From the NCBI GenBank assembly GCA_023246095.1, contig JAHFJA010000010.1, positions 1 through 37,042 on the forward strand: DNA of 37,042 bases, given 5' to 3'. Source of the stretch: a bacterium (GTDB lineage Bacteria > Patescibacteriota > Patescibacteriia > JACQRZ01). The position numbers and the translations under genes are program-made. This document shows, piece by piece, positions 6,750 through 36,823 of this stretch. How positions within the stretch are numbered: the first letter of the stretch is position 1; every line of letters begins with the position of its first letter. Below the pieces are notes generated by a model, which was not told the origin of the DNA, ran no database searches, and saw nothing but the letters and a program-made list of their open reading frames with translations.

Positions 6750-6778
6750 TTGACAAGAATGGTAAAATATGCTATATT
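6750..6778 (+). promoter_or_regulatory. Promoter of the 96-aa gene
   Basis: TTGACA (6750-6755), 17-nt spacer, TATATT (6773-6778), with an extended -10 TGC. The block TAAAATATGCTATA and downstream TAGAAAC recur at the promoter at 35116. Start near 6785. Confidence 0.8.
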
Positions 6779-6821
6779 CTGATCACTGAAAATATTATAG
6801 AAACCTCTGAAAGGAGATACC

Positions 6822-7112
6822 ATGGCCACAGTTCTTTTACCCATTAAAAAAACAATTACTGATTTTGACGTACGTATAGGAAAAAATCAAACGTATGGAA
6901 AAATTAAAAAAGGAGAATATAAAGTTGAAATGACTGAACTTGGAGGAAGTAAAAAGTATTACGAAGTATACCTGCAACTCACTGGAGAGACTCTTGGAGA
7001 TCCATGGGAATGGAGAAAAGACGGAACTTCTTCCAAACTTTCGGATGAAAAAATTATTCTTCTCGCAAAACAATTATTTTTAACAGAGATATCAAAAGAT
7101 AAAGATAAATAG
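6822..7112 (+). CDS. Small hypothetical protein, 96 aa
   Basis: I do not recognise this protein. It is soluble, highly charged and lysine-rich, with no signal peptide or membrane segment. The first half looks like beta strands (DFDVRIGKNQTYGKIKKGEYKVEM, read as alternating pattern in two stretches), with a WEWRKDG turn near residue 65 and a C-terminal helix. A strong Shine-Dalgarno (AAGGAG 6811-6816) sits 5 nt before the ATG, which fixes the start. It is monocistronic, with its own consensus promoter and a terminator shared with the convergent peptidase gene. Its promoter is nearly the same as that of the 299-aa unknown at 35224, so the two may be co-regulated. Confidence 0.75.
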   Translation: MATVLLPIKKTITDFDVRIGKNQTYGKIKKGEYKVEMTELGGSKKYYEVYLQLTGETLGDPWEWRKDGTSSKLSDEKIILLAKQLFLTEISKDKDK

Positions 7113-7123
7113 ATCAATCTATT

Positions 7124-15698: not shown

Positions 15699-16598
15699 TC
15701 ATGCGAGAAAATCTGTAATGAGTTTTTCTGATTCCTCTTTTGTTTTTACCCATACAACCCGCTTGTCTTTCCGAAACCATGTTAATTGACGACGAGCAAA
15801 TCCGTGAATCGCATATTTGAGGCGCTGAACCATTTCTTCTTTCGATTCCCATTCTCCTAGGATATATTGCAAGCAAAAGCGGTATTCCTGACCGAAATCG
15901 TAGAGACGTTTTTCATCGACCCCTGTGTTAAGTAGGTTCTGCACTTCCTCAATCATTCCTTCGTTTATCCGGTCATCAACTCGCTGGTCAATTCGTTTAT
16001 AAAGCTCTTCGCGAGGAACGTCGATACCAATCAGTAACACATCGTATAGTGACTCCCCTACTTTTTTATTTTCGACAAACGATTCTCCTGTCATGTGATT
16101 GACTTCAAGCGCACGAACCACACGGCGTTTATTCTTGAGATCAACCGACCGATAACTCTCGAGATCGGTGGACTGTAAAAGGTCAACCAGTTCATCAAGT
16201 GACTTATTTTCAAGCTCTGCGCGATATTCAAAATCTTCTTCGCCGGATGGTATCGCATAATTATCGACAACTGCCTGGATATAAAGCCCCGTACCCCCTA
16301 CCAAGAACGGTATTTTTCCACGCAAAATGATGTCCGCAATTGCTTCGTCGGCACGTTGTTTAAAATCTGTAAGGGTAAATCTTTCTTTTGGGTCGGCTAC
16401 ATCGAGAAGATAGTGAGGCACGTCTTTTTGTTGTTCTTTTGTCGCCTTCCCGCTTCCTATATCCATACCGGTATACACTTGACGTGAATCGGCAGAAACA
16501 ATCTCACCGCTGAATTGTTTGGCAAGCTCAATAGCCATATCGGTTTTACCCGACGATGTGGGTCCAAGGATGACAATTAGTTTAGGTCTTTGTTCCAT
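15699..16598 (-). CDS. miaA: tRNA dimethylallyltransferase MiaA
   Basis: MiaA transfers a dimethylallyl group to N6 of adenosine-37 in tRNAs that read codons starting with U, the step before MiaB. The 299-aa protein has the P-loop LGPTSSGKT near the N-terminus, the substrate signature SADSRQVYTGMDIGSGKAT, HYLLDVADP, and VGGTGLYIQAVVD. The ATG at 16598 is chosen over an upstream TTG at 16625 because the family begins right before KLIVILGPT. It overlaps the end of miaB by 17 nt, so the two are coupled and encode consecutive steps of one pathway. Confidence 0.95.
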   Translation of the reverse strand: MEQRPKLIVILGPTSSGKTDMAIELAKQFSGEIVSADSRQVYTGMDIGSGKATKEQQKDVPHYLLDVADPKERFTLTDFKQRADEAIADIILRGKIPFLVGGTGLYIQAVVDNYAIPSGEEDFEYRAELENKSLDELVDLLQSTDLESYRSVDLKNKRRVVRALEVNHMTGESFVENKKVGESLYDVLLIGIDVPREELYKRIDQRVDDRINEGMIEEVQNLLNTGVDEKRLYDFGQEYRFCLQYILGEWESKEEMVQRLKYAIHGFARRQLTWFRKDKRVVWVKTKEESEKLITDFLA

Positions 16599-17922
16599 AT
16601 AATACCCATTCAACAGCACGATCAACTTTTACATCTTGAATTGTACCAATTAATGTTTTATCTCCCTTAAACTGTACTCGTTTCATTTCGCGTGAATTGC
16701 CACTGCAAATGCCTTTTGCAAAGTGATCTACCATCACGGAGACTGTCTTTCCTATAAATGCTTGGTTTTTCCGTACAGCAGTTTGTTCCATGAGCACTTG
16801 CAATTCGAGCCATCGACGCTTCTTTTCCGCACTCGATACATCGTCTTTGTACAACTCAGAAGCACGCGTCCCTGACCGAACGGAATACATCGCGGTATAC
16901 GAAATATCAAAGTCACATTCTTTATAAAGACTCACTGTGTCGTTAAATTGTGCTTCAGTTTCGCCTGAAAAACCAACAATTATATCAGTGCCTAAAGCCA
17001 AATTAGGCAACCTTTCTTTCAATCGATGGATGGTGTCAACAAAGTGTTCCCGTGTATACGGCCGATACATACGCTTTAGTACTTCATTGTTTCCGCTTTG
17101 CACGGGCAGGTGGAGAAAATTTAAATGTCCTGGCAATTGCATAGCAGCAATAACTTCGGGAGTCATATGATTAGGGTGTGGTGCGGTAAAATGAATACGC
17201 GTGAGACCCGAGATTTGATTGAGTTCCCACAAAAGCGCACCAAAGTAGTTCGTTGGATTCACCTTGAGAGGATTATTAGGCGAGAATGTTTCAATATCTT
17301 TGGGTCGATACCAGTTTACCGTTTGCCCCAAAAGAGTGATTTCAAGACAACCATTTTCAACCAATGCCCGAACTTCAGAAATAATATCTTGGGCCGGACG
17401 ATCAACTTGGCGCCCACGTGAAAATGGAACTACACAATACGCGCACATTTTATTGCACCCCGTACTGATAGGAACGTACGCAGAATATCTTGTGGTGTAG
17501 ACAGGTGCAATTTTAAGATAATGTTCATATTCTTCGGCCGTCGCGCCATCAAACATTTCAGGACGGATTTCGGCAAGGCGTCGTGCAAGATGCACCATTT
17601 CATTTGTTGGAAAAAAGAGATCAACCCATGGCATACGGTTACGGATTTTTCCATCATGATCGCGCCCGGGCATACACCCAGTAATTGCCACGACCAACTC
17701 AGGCTTTACTGCCTTCAGTTTCTCAACTTCGCGCATTTGCCCATAAATCCTATCTTCGGCAGTTTGGCGTACTGAGCATGTGTTGTACATGATCAGATCG
17801 GCTGTCTCATCATCCTCAGTTTCACTCATGCCAAGATCCCCCAGCAGCGTTTTAATACGCTCTGAGTCGGATTTGTTCATCTGGCAACCAAAGGTGTTTA
17901 TTTTATAGTGTTTTGAGGCCAT
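16582..17922 (-). CDS. miaB: tRNA-2-methylthio-N6-dimethylallyladenosine synthase MiaB
   Basis: MiaB is a radical-SAM methylthiotransferase that adds the 2-methylthio group to i6A37 in tRNA. The 446-aa protein shows the three-domain plan: an N-terminal UPF0004 domain with cluster cysteines (INTFGCQMNKSDSE, then NTCSVRQTAE, and ITGCMPGRD), the radical-SAM CxxxCxxC (STGCNKMCAYCVVPFSRG), and a C-terminal TRAM domain. The ATG at 17922 starts the conserved MASKHYKINTFGCQ; the longer frame upstream to 18015 has no family resemblance. No Shine-Dalgarno is present. It is the first gene of the miaB-miaA pair. A possible promoter with TATAAA lies near 18000 on the minus strand but is weak. Confidence 0.95.
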   Translation of the reverse strand: MASKHYKINTFGCQMNKSDSERIKTLLGDLGMSETEDDETADLIMYNTCSVRQTAEDRIYGQMREVEKLKAVKPELVVAITGCMPGRDHDGKIRNRMPWVDLFFPTNEMVHLARRLAEIRPEMFDGATAEEYEHYLKIAPVYTTRYSAYVPISTGCNKMCAYCVVPFSRGRQVDRPAQDIISEVRALVENGCLEITLLGQTVNWYRPKDIETFSPNNPLKVNPTNYFGALLWELNQISGLTRIHFTAPHPNHMTPEVIAAMQLPGHLNFLHLPVQSGNNEVLKRMYRPYTREHFVDTIHRLKERLPNLALGTDIIVGFSGETEAQFNDTVSLYKECDFDISYTAMYSVRSGTRASELYKDDVSSAEKKRRWLELQVLMEQTAVRKNQAFIGKTVSVMVDHFAKGICSGNSREMKRVQFKGDKTLIGTIQDVKVDRAVEWVLYGTKT

Positions 17923-18033
17923 ATGTGTCGATATGATACGAGATTTTGAGGAAAATGGCAATGCATGAGAGATGTTCAATGTTTCAAAAAGCTTATGTTT
18001 ATAATGAAAAGTCAAAATATGTCCTAAATACTC

Positions 18034-18062
18034 TTGACAAAGTGATTAATATATGATATAGT
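18034..18062 (+). promoter_or_regulatory. Promoter of the 18-kb structured RNA
   Basis: TTGACA (18034-18039), 17-nt spacer, TATAGT (18057-18062), with TG one base before the -10. Start near 18069. It reads away from miaB into a gene-free stretch. Confidence 0.8.
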
Positions 18063-18147
18063 GTTTTCAGCCCAGAAGATTTCTCGGGCAAGGAACACAA
18101 ATGAGTGGGGTTAAGGAAAGATGCTCCACGAATGACTGCCTCTTGGA

Positions 18148-18216
18148 AACAGGAGGAATAGGAGGAAGCAAAAGGTGAAAGAGTTTTTCACTGGGTTCGT
18201 TTAGGAGCAACTAAAC
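18148..18216 (+). repeat. Two-hairpin module, copy 1
   Basis: AACAGGAGG, a second AGGAGG, then hairpin A (GTGAAA 18175-18180 with TTTCAC 18186-18191) and hairpin B (GTTTAG 18199-18204 with CTAAAC 18211-18216). The last 46 nt match copy 2 at 37 positions; seven of nine differences fall in the two loops. Confidence 0.8.
18175..18204 (+). CDS. Possible 9-residue micro-ORF, copy 1
   Basis: GTG at 18175, 9 nt after AGGAGG (18160-18165), opens MKEFFTGFV and a TAG stop. The copy at 18469 has the same length and stop. The spacing is ideal for translation, but sequence differences between copies sit in RNA loops, so the frame may be incidental to an RNA structure, a leader peptide, or a relic of a signal-peptide gene. 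Confidence 0.25.
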   Translation: MKEFFTGFV

Positions 18217-18451
18217 AAACCATACCGCGCGAGAAGAGCGCCTACCTAATTTGGTTTAGGCGACTCAAATAATTAACTTAAAAAATCCGGTTTATTTAAG
18301 GGAGTGCATCCCGTCTATAACATTACGCGCCTTATATAACGGCAAGTAATGAAGTAGACTTCGTCATGACATGAATGTTAAGTAAATATTAATGTCAAAA
18401 ATGCGAGTATTACAATGGCAGTGATTTGGAAGACGATCCATTAAGAATGCC

Positions 18452-18510
18452 AACAGGAGGCAAGAAAGGTGAAAAAATATTTCACCGGGTTCGTTTAGTA
18501 GTTGCTTAAC
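18452..18510 (+). repeat. Two-hairpin module, copy 2
   Basis: AACAGGAGG followed by hairpin A (GGTGAAA 18468-18474 with TTTCACC 18480-18486) and hairpin B (GTTTAG 18493-18498 with CTTAAC 18505-18510, one mismatch). The AGGAGG can itself be held in a TGCC/GGCA stem (18448-18462). Confidence 0.8.
18469..18498 (+). CDS. Possible 9-residue micro-ORF, copy 2
   Basis: GTG at 18469, 8 nt after AGGAGG (18455-18460), opens MKKYFTGFV and stops with TAG. Its FTGFV end is identical to copy 1. Start codon and Shine-Dalgarno can both be masked by hairpins. Translation is unproven. Confidence 0.25.
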   Translation: MKKYFTGFV

Positions 18511-18537
18511 AAGTGACTACAGACATATCCGGTAAAC

Positions 18538-18574
18538 AAGGTCTATACTTATTACGTATAGGCCTTTTCATTTT
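18538..18574 (+). terminator. Terminator of the structured RNA
   Basis: An 11-bp stem (18538-18548, AAGGTCTATAC, with 18556-18566; one wobble), 7-nt loop and a T-rich tail. It lies 8 nt before the end of the convergent pseudouridine synthase gene and may also serve it. Confidence 0.85.
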
Positions 18575-18581
18575 AAGCTTT

Positions 18582-19274
18582 CTAATACCCCTCACAGCAA
18601 CCTCCGGACTTATGTTCTTGATGAATTCCACTCTTATCAACAGGCACTTCAATACATTTTCTCTCGCCACCGACAGGGGTATTAAAGCAAAGTTTTGATG
18701 CGGTCAGCGCTATAGCACCTTTTTTATACGGCAAAAAACTACCATACTTAGAATCTCCCATTATGGGATGCCCGATAACACTCAGCTGTGCACGAATTTG
18801 ATGAGAACGGCCTGTCTCTAAATGCACTTCAAGAAGCGTTGTCTGGCCTTTATAACCCAATACATTATATGATAAAATCGCTTCCTTGCTTTCAGGGCGC
18901 TCAGTGCTAAACGCTTTCACGGTATTAGTACGCTCATCTTTCACTAAGTAGTGCTTAAGAGTTTGCTCTTTTTCTTCAACGATCCCTTCAACACAGGCAG
19001 TATATACTTTTTCAAATTCATGATTGCGAATTTGTGCGGAAAGACGGGAAGCACCTTTACTCGTTTTTGCAAAAATAACGATGCCATCGACAGGTCGGTC
19101 GATGCGATGAACCATCCCCAAAAACACGTCGCCAGGCTTATTTCCTTTTTCTTTAAGATACGCCCTTACTTCGTCTGCAAGTGTCCTATCTCCTGTTATA
19201 TCGCTTTGCACCAGCATTCCTGCGGGTTTATAGACAACGATACAGTGATTGTCTTCATACAGCACTTTTATCAT
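18582..19274 (-). CDS. RluA-family RNA pseudouridine synthase
   Basis: The 230-aa protein isomerises uridines to pseudouridine in rRNA or tRNA; the exact target cannot be read from sequence. It has the family's start (VLYEDNHCIVVYKPAGMLVQ), the catalytic-Asp motif HRIDRPVDG, and the later VHLETGRSHQIRAQLSVIGHPIMGDSKYG signature, given here by its core GRSHQIR. There is no N-terminal S4 domain, as in the short RluA/RluC-like forms. The HRIDRPVDG variant replaces the more common HRLDRxTSG but keeps the Asp. The ATG at 19274 overlaps the stop of the upstream methyltransferase gene as ATGA, so translation is coupled and both probably modify RNA in one pathway. Confidence 0.9.
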   Translation of the reverse strand: MIKVLYEDNHCIVVYKPAGMLVQSDITGDRTLADEVRAYLKEKGNKPGDVFLGMVHRIDRPVDGIVIFAKTSKGASRLSAQIRNHEFEKVYTACVEGIVEEKEQTLKHYLVKDERTNTVKAFSTERPESKEAILSYNVLGYKGQTTLLEVHLETGRSHQIRAQLSVIGHPIMGDSKYGSFLPYKKGAIALTASKLCFNTPVGGERKCIEVPVDKSGIHQEHKSGGCCEGY

Positions 19275-20155
19275 ATAGACTTCCAGCGAGCGACAATACC
19301 GCATGGCAAAAGGAAACCACGATCAGAGGATTCTTTGATAGTCAGTTCACCGTGCTCAAAAATACCCTCTCGATCCCCTAGCATTCGTTTAAGATTGTAT
19401 AGATACACGAGAGACGAATATCCGGCGGCATATCCATTAAGAATCACAAATGCGGGCTTTTCAGACAATATCTGGCTACATAGATCAATGAGAGGAAGAA
19501 AATCATTTTCAATTTTCCATACTTCATTATCCGGTCCATGCCCAAATGATGGCGGATCCATAATGATACCATCGTACTTATTTCCGCGTTTTATTTCACG
19601 CTTCACAAACGAAGTCACATCATCAATAATCCAACGAACCGGCTTATCTTCCAAGGCGGATAATTTGGCATTTTCTCTCGCCCAATTCACCGCAACTTTC
19701 GATCCATCTACATGACATACATGAGCTCCAGCTTGAGCAGCCACTAGACTTGCAATCCCTGTGTACCCAAATAAATTAAGCACCTTAAGAGGACGGTCTG
19801 CCTCTTTAATTACTTCTGACATCCAATGCCAATTTGCACGATGTTCGGGAAACATACCGACATGCTTGAACGAGCTCAATCGTCCAACTGCCACGATTCC
19901 CTCGCCTAATGAAATCTCCCACTGGCTCGGCATGGATTTAAACGCTTTCCAGGCCCCATTTTTCGCGCTATTTGAAAAAGATGCATGCACATCTCGCCAT
20001 TGCTCAGTACTAAGGTTCTTATGCCACAAAGCCTGCGGATCGGGTCGAGACACGACAATATCGCCAAAACGTTCCAGCTTTGCTTCTTCCCCTGAATCAA
20101 GGAGTTCGTAATCCCCAAAAGCAGGAGTGGTAAATAGTGTTGGTTTTTCATCCAT
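19271..20155 (-). CDS. Class I SAM-dependent methyltransferase, RlmI/RlmK-like
   Basis: The 294-aa protein resembles the RlmI/RlmK group, which methylates 23S rRNA. The SAM-binding motif is VLNLFGYTGIASLVAAQAGA (motif I), followed by HVDGSKVAVNWARENAKLS, and the catalytic-region motif MDPPSFGHGP. The N-terminal ~120 residues lack an obvious PUA domain, so it is shorter than classical RlmI (~396 aa); the target nucleotide is uncertain. The ATG at 20155 is preferred to an in-frame TTG at 20167. There is no Shine-Dalgarno. The stop overlaps the start of the pseudouridine synthase gene by 4 nt. Confidence 0.85.
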   Translation of the reverse strand: MDEKPTLFTTPAFGDYELLDSGEEAKLERFGDIVVSRPDPQALWHKNLSTEQWRDVHASFSNSAKNGAWKAFKSMPSQWEISLGEGIVAVGRLSSFKHVGMFPEHRANWHWMSEVIKEADRPLKVLNLFGYTGIASLVAAQAGAHVCHVDGSKVAVNWARENAKLSALEDKPVRWIIDDVTSFVKREIKRGNKYDGIIMDPPSFGHGPDNEVWKIENDFLPLIDLCSQILSEKPAFVILNGYAAGYSSLVYLYNLKRMLGDREGIFEHGELTIKESSDRGFLLPCGIVARWKSI

Positions 20156-20223
20156 AATAAAAGGCAATATACTCTATTATGACCATTTTGGGAAGATATG
20201 ATGTATAAATGACATTTTTACCA

Positions 20224-20259
20224 TTGACAAAACACCTTTATGGAGGTATAATTTATACC
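20224..20259 (+). promoter_or_regulatory. Promoter with palindromic operator ahead of the 51-aa gene
   Basis: TTGACA (20224-20229), 17-nt spacer, TATAAT (20247-20252), a perfect consensus promoter. The -10 lies inside a perfect 15-bp palindrome GGTATAATTTATACC (20245-20259). Start near 20259. Confidence 0.8.
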
Positions 20260-20295
20260 GTCGCTATAATATTATGAACAATAAAGAGGTTCCAA

Positions 20296-20451
20296 ATGGG
20301 TACTTTAGAATGTATAAAAGAATTATTTGACCTAACCATCGATCCACCAGAGGTCGCTGAAAAGAGGCACAAACACGTTAATGAGACAATTTTAAAAATG
20401 TCCAATAATGGATATTTGAAACAAATCTGGAGAATATTTTTTTCGATTTAA
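20296..20451 (+). CDS. Small hypothetical protein, 51 aa
   Basis: The frame MGTLECIKELFDLTIDPP... runs for 51 codons to TAA at 20449-20451. Evidence that it is real: a perfect promoter 37 nt upstream, and AGAGG (20285-20289) 6 nt before the ATG. The peptide is a likely amphipathic helix pair with a basic middle (EKRHKHVNE) and an aromatic, hydrophobic C-terminus (LKQIWRIFFSI) that could touch a membrane. I do not recognise it; a small regulator or toxin-like peptide is possible but unsupported. It is followed at once by the promoter of a small RNA candidate in the same direction, an arrangement worth testing for a linked function. Confidence 0.5.
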   Translation: MGTLECIKELFDLTIDPPEVAEKRHKHVNETILKMSNNGYLKQIWRIFFSI

Positions 20452-20455
20452 TCGT

Positions 20456-20488
20456 TTGACATTAGCATATAATCCAGTATAATACTGG
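20456..20488 (+). promoter_or_regulatory. Promoter with palindromic operator of the small RNA
   Basis: TTGACA (20456-20461), 16-nt spacer, TATAAT (20478-20483). The -10 is centred in a perfect 15-bp palindrome CCAGTATAATACTGG (20474-20488). It begins 5 nt after the stop of the 51-aa gene. Start near 20490. Confidence 0.8.
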
Positions 20489-20489
20489 T

Positions 20490-20561
20490 GTTCATTGGAT
20501 AGGATCTCCTTTATAAAGATCCACACCACACTAGGCACAAGCCGAAATGTGGTATTTTTTT
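20490..20561 (+). ncRNA. Candidate small RNA of about 70 nt
   Basis: The span from the promoter to an intrinsic terminator is ~70 nt. It holds a first hairpin GGATCT/AGATCC (20502-20507 with 20517-20522) with a palindromic loop CTTTATAAAG overlapping it, then the terminator hairpin. No reading frame of use is present, and nothing lies downstream in the same direction: convergent thrS follows. So it is not a leader of a visible gene. The function and target are unknown. Confidence 0.6.
20525..20561 (+). terminator. Terminator of the small RNA
   Basis: ACCACA (20525-20530) pairs with TGTGGT (20548-20553), with an inner stem GGC-ACAA-GCC (20534-20543), followed by ATTTTTTT. Confidence 0.75.
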
Positions 20562-36167: not shown

Positions 36168-36196
36168 TTCCAACAAGAACTATGTTCCACTACAGA

Positions 36197-36334
36197 GCGG
36201 GTGTATCCCATACCTTCGAGTGGCCTCCACAGCCGAACGGGCACGATGTCCCGAAGGGACGAGTGAGGCGAGGACAGAGTTGAAATCCTCGCAGGGGATT
36301 TCAACGTACGCGAGAAGGTATGGGATACACCCGC
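36197..36334. repeat. GC-rich palindromic element, 138 bp
   Basis: A perfect 20-bp terminal inverted repeat (36197-36216, 36315-36334) begins GCGGGTGTATCCC. Inside lie three more stems: GCCTC/GAGGC around GTCCC-GAA-GGGAC (36248-36260), and GTTGAAATCC/GGATTTCAAC (36279-36288, 36296-36305). The whole could fold as a branched cruciform or RNA. It is much more GC-rich than its surroundings. It may be a REP/MITE-like mobile palindrome or a strong bidirectional transcription stop between the 299-aa gene and greA. Confidence 0.8.
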
Positions 36335-36364
36335 GTTCTCGTGATTGACTAGAATCTCAGAAGG

Positions 36365-36823
36365 CTACTTTATCTCCACAATCTCATATTCGAACTCTCC
36401 TGCTGGTGCTTTGATGATTACTTTCTCACCGACTTTCCTATTCATGAATGCTTTGCCCAATGGTGACTCGTATGAAATCTTGTTTGCGCCCGGATCAACT
36501 TCTTCAGGGCCGACAATCATGAACTCCATGTGCTTGTCACCAAAGCGAGCATTAAATTTGGTACCGACACCCACCTGTGTATGGGGTACAGTTGACTCAA
36601 CAACAATTTCAGCATTTTTCAATAAATGTTCAATTTCAAGTATACGCGACTCAATAGTCGCCTGATCTTCTTTTGCTTGTGAGTACTCGGCGTTCTCTGA
36701 TAAGTCGCCATGTTCTTTAGCAGTAAACACGCGAGCAATTACCGCTTTTCGTGCTGTATTTTTGAGATGGTCAAGCTCAGCAAGTAGTTTGTCTCGCCCC
36801 TCTTTCGTAAGATATTGTGCCAT
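36365..36823 (-). CDS. greA: Transcription elongation factor GreA
   Basis: GreA enters the secondary channel of stalled RNA polymerase and stimulates cleavage of backtracked RNA. The 152-aa protein has the N-terminal coiled coil with the acidic tip residues in GDLSENAEYSQAKEDQ and the C-terminal FKBP-like domain (VGPEEVDPGANKISYESPLG, KVGEKVIIKAPAG). Length is normal for the family. The ATG at 36823 has no Shine-Dalgarno, and a TATAAT 6 nt upstream hints at a leaderless transcript. It follows a PBP2 gene by 68 nt. Confidence 0.96.
   Translation of the reverse strand: MAQYLTKEGRDKLLAELDHLKNTARKAVIARVFTAKEHGDLSENAEYSQAKEDQATIESRILEIEHLLKNAEIVVESTVPHTQVGVGTKFNARFGDKHMEFMIVGPEEVDPGANKISYESPLGKAFMNRKVGEKVIIKAPAGEFEYEIVEIK

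Follow-up and report, generated by a model that had tools for sequence, protein, structure and literature searches.

Long structured RNAs and the rluA-miaB gap

The bacterial RNAs GOLLD, ROOL and OLE are several hundred nucleotides long and carry many hairpins (PMC12286853), as is predicted for the element described here. Phages and prophages carry GOLLD and ROOL, often near tRNA islands; the function of GOLLD is unknown and that of ROOL is hypothetical (PMC12286853). Orphan intergenic structured RNAs of bacteria, gathered by pipelines that screen intergenic regions (for example, PMC8632094 and PMC11109978), likewise occupy long gene-free gaps, with their own promoter and terminator and a significant folding energy, but those classes rest on cross-genome comparative sequence analysis, whereas no alignable relative of our element was found. 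CsrB-type protein sponges also resemble it in repeating GGA in an RNA of many hairpins. In leader peptides and dual-function small RNAs with a tiny open reading frame (ORF), a Shine-Dalgarno sequence, a short ORF and hairpins are interleaved as they are here; in contrast to those systems, there is no regulated gene behind the element on the same strand, and its ORFs are putative. A literature search revealed no study focused on the non-coding RNAs of Patescibacteria.

The element lies within the window, the whole 37,042-nt stretch of patescibacterial DNA that was analyzed, which belongs to a draft genome of roughly 1 Mb (40 contigs, 95% complete). It sits in the gap at 17926-18581, which at 656 nt is the longest in the window (median gap, 33 nt). 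The gap is bounded by rluA (18582-19304, - strand; pseudouridine synthase, Pfam PF00849) and miaB (16582-17925, - strand; radical SAM, PF04055 and PF00919), and miaA follows rluA and miaB downstream on the - strand. An earlier, sequence-only reading had described about 500 nt without a gene at this position, and the ORF list indeed holds no + strand ORF of 40 aa or more inside 18063-18512; one 61-aa + strand frame begins at 18513 and exits through the terminator. Judging from its sequence signals, this gap probably encodes a real, separately transcribed structured RNA. The reading that we favor, a lineage-specific RNA gene with a tentative mode of action set out below, has in our judgment an even chance of being right.

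Transcription signals and predicted fold

Both signals that the sequence-only reading had placed around the element, a TTGACA-17-TATAGT promoter and an 11-bp terminator, are present. The sigma-70-type promoter (18034-18062, + strand) matches the consensus at 11 of 12 positions and has an extended -10 element (TG), while the intrinsic terminator (18538-18566, + strand) has an 11-bp stem and the tail TTTTCATTTT, the T-rich sequence after the stem reading TTCATTTTAA. With its start taken from the promoter and its end from the terminator, a + strand transcript of about 505 nt (18069-18574; z, -9.4) from the rluA-miaB gap is well supported by the sequence; it would stop a short way ahead of the 3' end of rluA. 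When the whole window was scanned at a consensus match of at least 11/12, nine promoter sites were recovered, and all seven of those with a perfect TTGACA are intergenic and stand at the start of a gene or unit, which makes the promoter at 18034 credible. The RNase P gene of the same genome has a promoter of like type (TTGACA-16-TATAAT). The locus therefore has its own promoter, by consensus match and by specificity across the window, and its own terminator, by stem and T-rich tail, as expected of an independent bacterial small RNA gene.

The 541-nt stretch containing these signals folds better than its shuffles, with a z of -9.3 for the + strand and of -5.0 for the - strand, and the + strand retains a z of -6.3 without the terminator; the significant folding energy looked for in structured RNAs is found either way. 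The z-score alone is not unique to the element, because 16 random stretches of equal length, mostly near 0, included two (467-nt stretches from 4295 and 36097) that reached about -6. Local 150-nt windows in the element were less extreme (z of -1.7, -1.7, -3.6 and -5.6). More than seven helices have a pairing probability above 0.8, in agreement with the earlier count of at least seven local hairpins, and the element RNA is predicted to form about a dozen hairpins. From the 5' end on the + strand, these include GCCC...GGGC at 18070-18089 (pair probability, 0.81 to 0.96), GTGGGGT...GCTCCAC at 18105-18129 (0.99), CCUCUUG-GAAA-CAGGAGG at 18139-18156 (0.48), GAGCGCCTACC...GGTTTAGGCGACTC at 18236-18266 (0.87 to 0.99), a three-part hairpin, GTCTAT/CATTAC/GCC...GGC/GTAATG/GTAGAC, at 18313-18359 (0.99 to 1.0), and TGACAT/AATGTT...AATATT/ATGTCA at 18367-18397 (0.92 to 0.94).

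Since the - strand also beats its shuffles and miaB and miaA lie downstream on that strand, the structure could instead be part of a leader that serves the miaB-miaA operon, is transcribed by read-through from rluA and acts, for example, as an attenuator or riboswitch. We regard this as very improbable: the + strand fold is the better one, both the strong promoter and the tail of the terminator are oriented for the + strand, miaB has a promoter-like site of its own near its start (TTGCCA-17-TATCAT, 17961-17933, - strand), and no Rfam leader or riboswitch scored above threshold.

A separate structured stretch was noted near the end of the window, where the gap between a 299-aa ORF and a 152-aa ORF (36365-36823, - strand) holds a long imperfect inverted repeat, GCGGGTGTATCCCATACCTTC ... 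GAAGGTATGGGATACACCCGC (36180-36340); the 467-nt stretch from 36097 in this inverted-repeat region has a z of about -6.5.

The internal repeat and its two readings

The element had been described as containing two modules about 294 nt apart that match at 37 of 46 positions, and this similarity is real, as 300 dinucleotide shuffles reached at most 29. The two copies (18171-18218 and 18465-18512, + strand) are 81% alike over 48 nt with a spacing of 294. In copy 1, hairpin A spans 18174-18192 and hairpin B spans 18194-18221. In copy 2, hairpin A is at 18468-18486 (probability, 0.38), and hairpin B has an ensemble probability of 0.00; a 21-bp hairpin is predicted in its place at 18484-18533 (+ strand; -22.9 kcal/mol; z, -6.5). 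The proposal of a duplicated two-hairpin module was therefore only half right, in that the duplication stands and the second hairpin of copy 2 is predicted to give way to another fold. The 5' arm GGGUUCGUUUAG is common to both copies and in copy 2 is predicted to pair with a new 3' arm farther downstream. In the folding model, each copy would form a hairpin from this same 5' arm, with an internal loop in nearly the same place and with different 3' arms.

Aligned without gaps, the copies differ at nine positions, and these are distributed as had been described: the first loop holds three and the second holds four, one turns a G-U pair into G-C and one breaks a pair. No relative aligned in which base pairs kept by compensatory change could be sought; inside the repeat, the differences that touch pairs are the one G-U to G-C change and the one broken pair. 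The pattern of the differences had been taken to favor selection on RNA structure. We find the argument from the positions of the differences not decisive, because a coding pattern is a comparably good explanation of the repeat, and selection on structure is not established, since no relative aligns and both copies also read as a Shine-Dalgarno sequence followed by a nine-codon ORF.

Under this coding reading, the transcript would be a short messenger for tiny peptides, with a translation unit in each repeat copy composed of AGGAGG, 8 to 9 nt, GTG, nine codons and TAG. The copy 1 ORF (18175-18204, + strand) would encode VKEFFTGFV and the copy 2 ORF (18469-18498, + strand) VKKYFTGFV, each behind AGGAGG. 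A further possible ORF of 25 codons, MSGVKERCSTNDCLLETGGIGGSKR, lies at 18101-18178 (+ strand; putatively coding) with AAGGA 6 nt upstream, and its stop codon and the GTG of the following ORF overlap (GTGA). The Shine-Dalgarno sequence, GTG, frame and TAG are kept in both copies, and only 4 of 30 ORF bases differ (two of them countable as synonymous), compared with 5 of 12 after the stop. In the same vein, the copies agree throughout the 5' arm of hairpin B, which makes up the end of the ORF, but differ in the 3' arm past the stop. AGGAGG is also enriched in the element (3 seen versus 0.22 expected; P, 0.002). Against these points, both GTG starts fall within the stem of hairpin A, with an unpaired probability of 0.05 to 0.40, nine codons is very short, a start codon 8 to 9 nt behind AGGAGG is fairly likely by chance, and a coding test would need more than four changes. 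Moreover, among 95 relatives the peptide pattern occurs in this genome alone, and the sister species lacks it. On balance, we consider a messenger for tiny peptides unlikely. The possibility that the repeat is a truncated copy of a gene start was also rejected, as no such gene was found in the 95 relatives.

The presence of over ten GGA motifs had been offered as a hint of a protein sponge. The count holds (11 triplets), but there is no enrichment behind it (mean of 10.0 expected; P, 0.40), so the hint is not supported. Nor was CsrA (PF02599) found in this genome or in 18 relatives (19 genomes). With GGA at chance level in a genome without detected CsrA, the element differs from CsrB-type sponges in both respects, and we rejected a role as a CsrA sponge.

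Comparative searches and possible mode of action

The earlier reading had been unable to fit the element to a known RNA class, and our searches bear this out. An Infernal cmscan of the window against 4,227 Rfam models, at gathering and at relaxed thresholds, gave no match, with the best sub-threshold score at about 18 bits or less. GOLLD, ROOL and OLE, whose models were presumably part of the Rfam copy searched, were not among the matches, and unlike GOLLD and ROOL the element shows no tRNA or phage similarity. For the families tested, membership in a known RNA family is excluded. The element is not the missing RNase P RNA or tmRNA of this genome either, as both were found on other contigs. 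The Rfam model detected no 6S RNA in this genome, so that a diverged one could be hidden somewhere, and the silence of this model means little because it also misses most control genomes. Even so, it is extremely improbable that the element is a highly diverged 6S RNA or other known housekeeping RNA, given that its length of about 505 nt far exceeds the 187-position 6S model, that its predicted fold is a series of many local hairpins instead of one long bulged rod, and that RNase P RNA and tmRNA are accounted for elsewhere.

Homologue searches were also negative. A blastn search of the element against the 95 relatives found no relative, the matches being to the promoter or short chance ones; a match in genome G005 belongs to a 189-aa gene and not to an RNA. 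No relative could be aligned, and a covariance model of the hairpin module found no homologue among 381 genomes of the class. Module matches in genomes G002 and G175 were rejected as chance, both lying inside long ORFs. A distant-mode search of plasmids and phages found no homologue, and one scan of viral contigs with the module gave no match.

Gene order places the gap in a narrow lineage. A contig search via the neighboring methyltransferase gene showed that the rluA-miaB gap is retained only in a sister species of the same genus, while the other Patescibacteria loci that we read have other genes close behind rluA or reach the contig end. In most other members of the family, thrS adjoins miaB at a distance of about 40 to 220 nt, too short to hold the element. 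The methyltransferase-rluA pair (18582-20167 in the window) between thrS and miaB, and the gap with it, was found in this genus alone when family loci were compared (L022 and L027-L034).

All the comparative results are limited by a base of one draft genome and one sister species (G001) that does not align. Gene order in the sister species is the same, with a shorter gap, and MiaB is 81% and RluA 75% identical. Its gap contains a + strand promoter of like kind at the corresponding place (TTGACA-17-TAATAT) and a + strand terminator, with no long ORF on that strand, and a block of 15 nt around the -35 box, AATACTCTTGACAAA, is identical between the two species. Beyond this -35 block, alignment of the element with the G001 transcript gave no signal, with Smith-Waterman scores no better than those of shuffles. 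The G001 RNA between promoter and terminator is about 260 nt, half as long, and is weakly structured (z of -4.8 with the terminator and -2.5 without it). The transcript sequence of the sister species is unrelated to that of the element.

These results could also be explained if the gap were a weakly constrained transcribed spacer, with a real promoter but an RNA that is a by-product or decaying relic whose structure has no selected role. The lack of sequence conservation between two species whose neighboring proteins are 75 to 81% identical is consistent with this, as are the failure to find a homologue anywhere searched and the presence of other window stretches with equal z. However, a 656-nt gap lies far above the median of 33 nt in a compact genome, the z of -6.3 without the terminator and several hairpins with probabilities near 1 are unexpected of drifting sequence, and the promoter position and the terminator persist in both species. 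We judge a spacer of this kind rather unlikely and keep it, along with the tiny-peptide messenger, as a live rival.

Returning to the lineage-specific RNA gene, a mode of action can be sketched. The internal duplication provides two segments, each consisting in sequence of AGGAGG, then hairpin A, then the GGGUUCGUUUAG arm, which by folding prediction closes the second hairpin with a different partner in each copy. The likeliest mode of action would be that of a regulatory RNA working in trans through Shine-Dalgarno-like docking sites. In the folding model of this one sequence, CCUCUUG (18139-18145) pairs at about equal probability with the CAGGAGG of copy 1 (0.48) or, over a long range, with that of copy 2 at 18454-18460 (0.43), and masking of one CAGGAGG would leave the other accessible to the 30S subunit or a C-rich partner RNA. 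We propose Shine-Dalgarno-like docking with alternate masking tentatively, as a possibility. A more specific version is quite improbable: a large, fast-evolving Patescibacteria regulatory RNA would work as a bistable switch, CCUCUUG masking by turns the duplicated pair of Shine-Dalgarno-like modules. The ribosome would then be engaged, by the RNA or by its two peptides of nine residues, in either of two ways. Arguing against the RNA gene as we read it are a transcript sequence that is not kept even in the sister species, the short and weakly structured element there, the other window stretches that reach a z of about -6, and a copy 2 that lacks the fold of copy 1. The sequence of the element was found in no other genome searched.

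If the reading is correct, it would suggest that reduced cells retain their own regulatory RNAs, with an RNA gene of about 500 nt kept in a genome of roughly 1 Mb that yielded neither CsrA nor a recognizable 6S RNA. The two species would also illustrate, by keeping promoter and terminator while the sequence turns over, how such genes escape homology searches; they would need to be found by synteny and transcription signals.

Three other intervals of the window, all on the + strand, carry transcription signals that we record separately. At 20456-20560, between a 51-aa ORF and thrS, a perfect promoter (TTGACA-16-TATAAT) precedes a second candidate small RNA of about 80 nt, which has a GGATCT...AGATCC hairpin, a terminator (ACCACA...TGTGGT followed by a T run) and no notable ORF. 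At 20224-20451, a perfect promoter (TTGACA-17-TATAAT) lies before the 51-codon ORF (MGTLECIKELFDLTIDPPEVAEKRHKHVN...), a probable small protein. At 6750-7113, a TTGACA-17-TATATT promoter and a Shine-Dalgarno sequence precede a small protein, slightly short of 100 codons, that starts with MATVLLPIKKTITDF.
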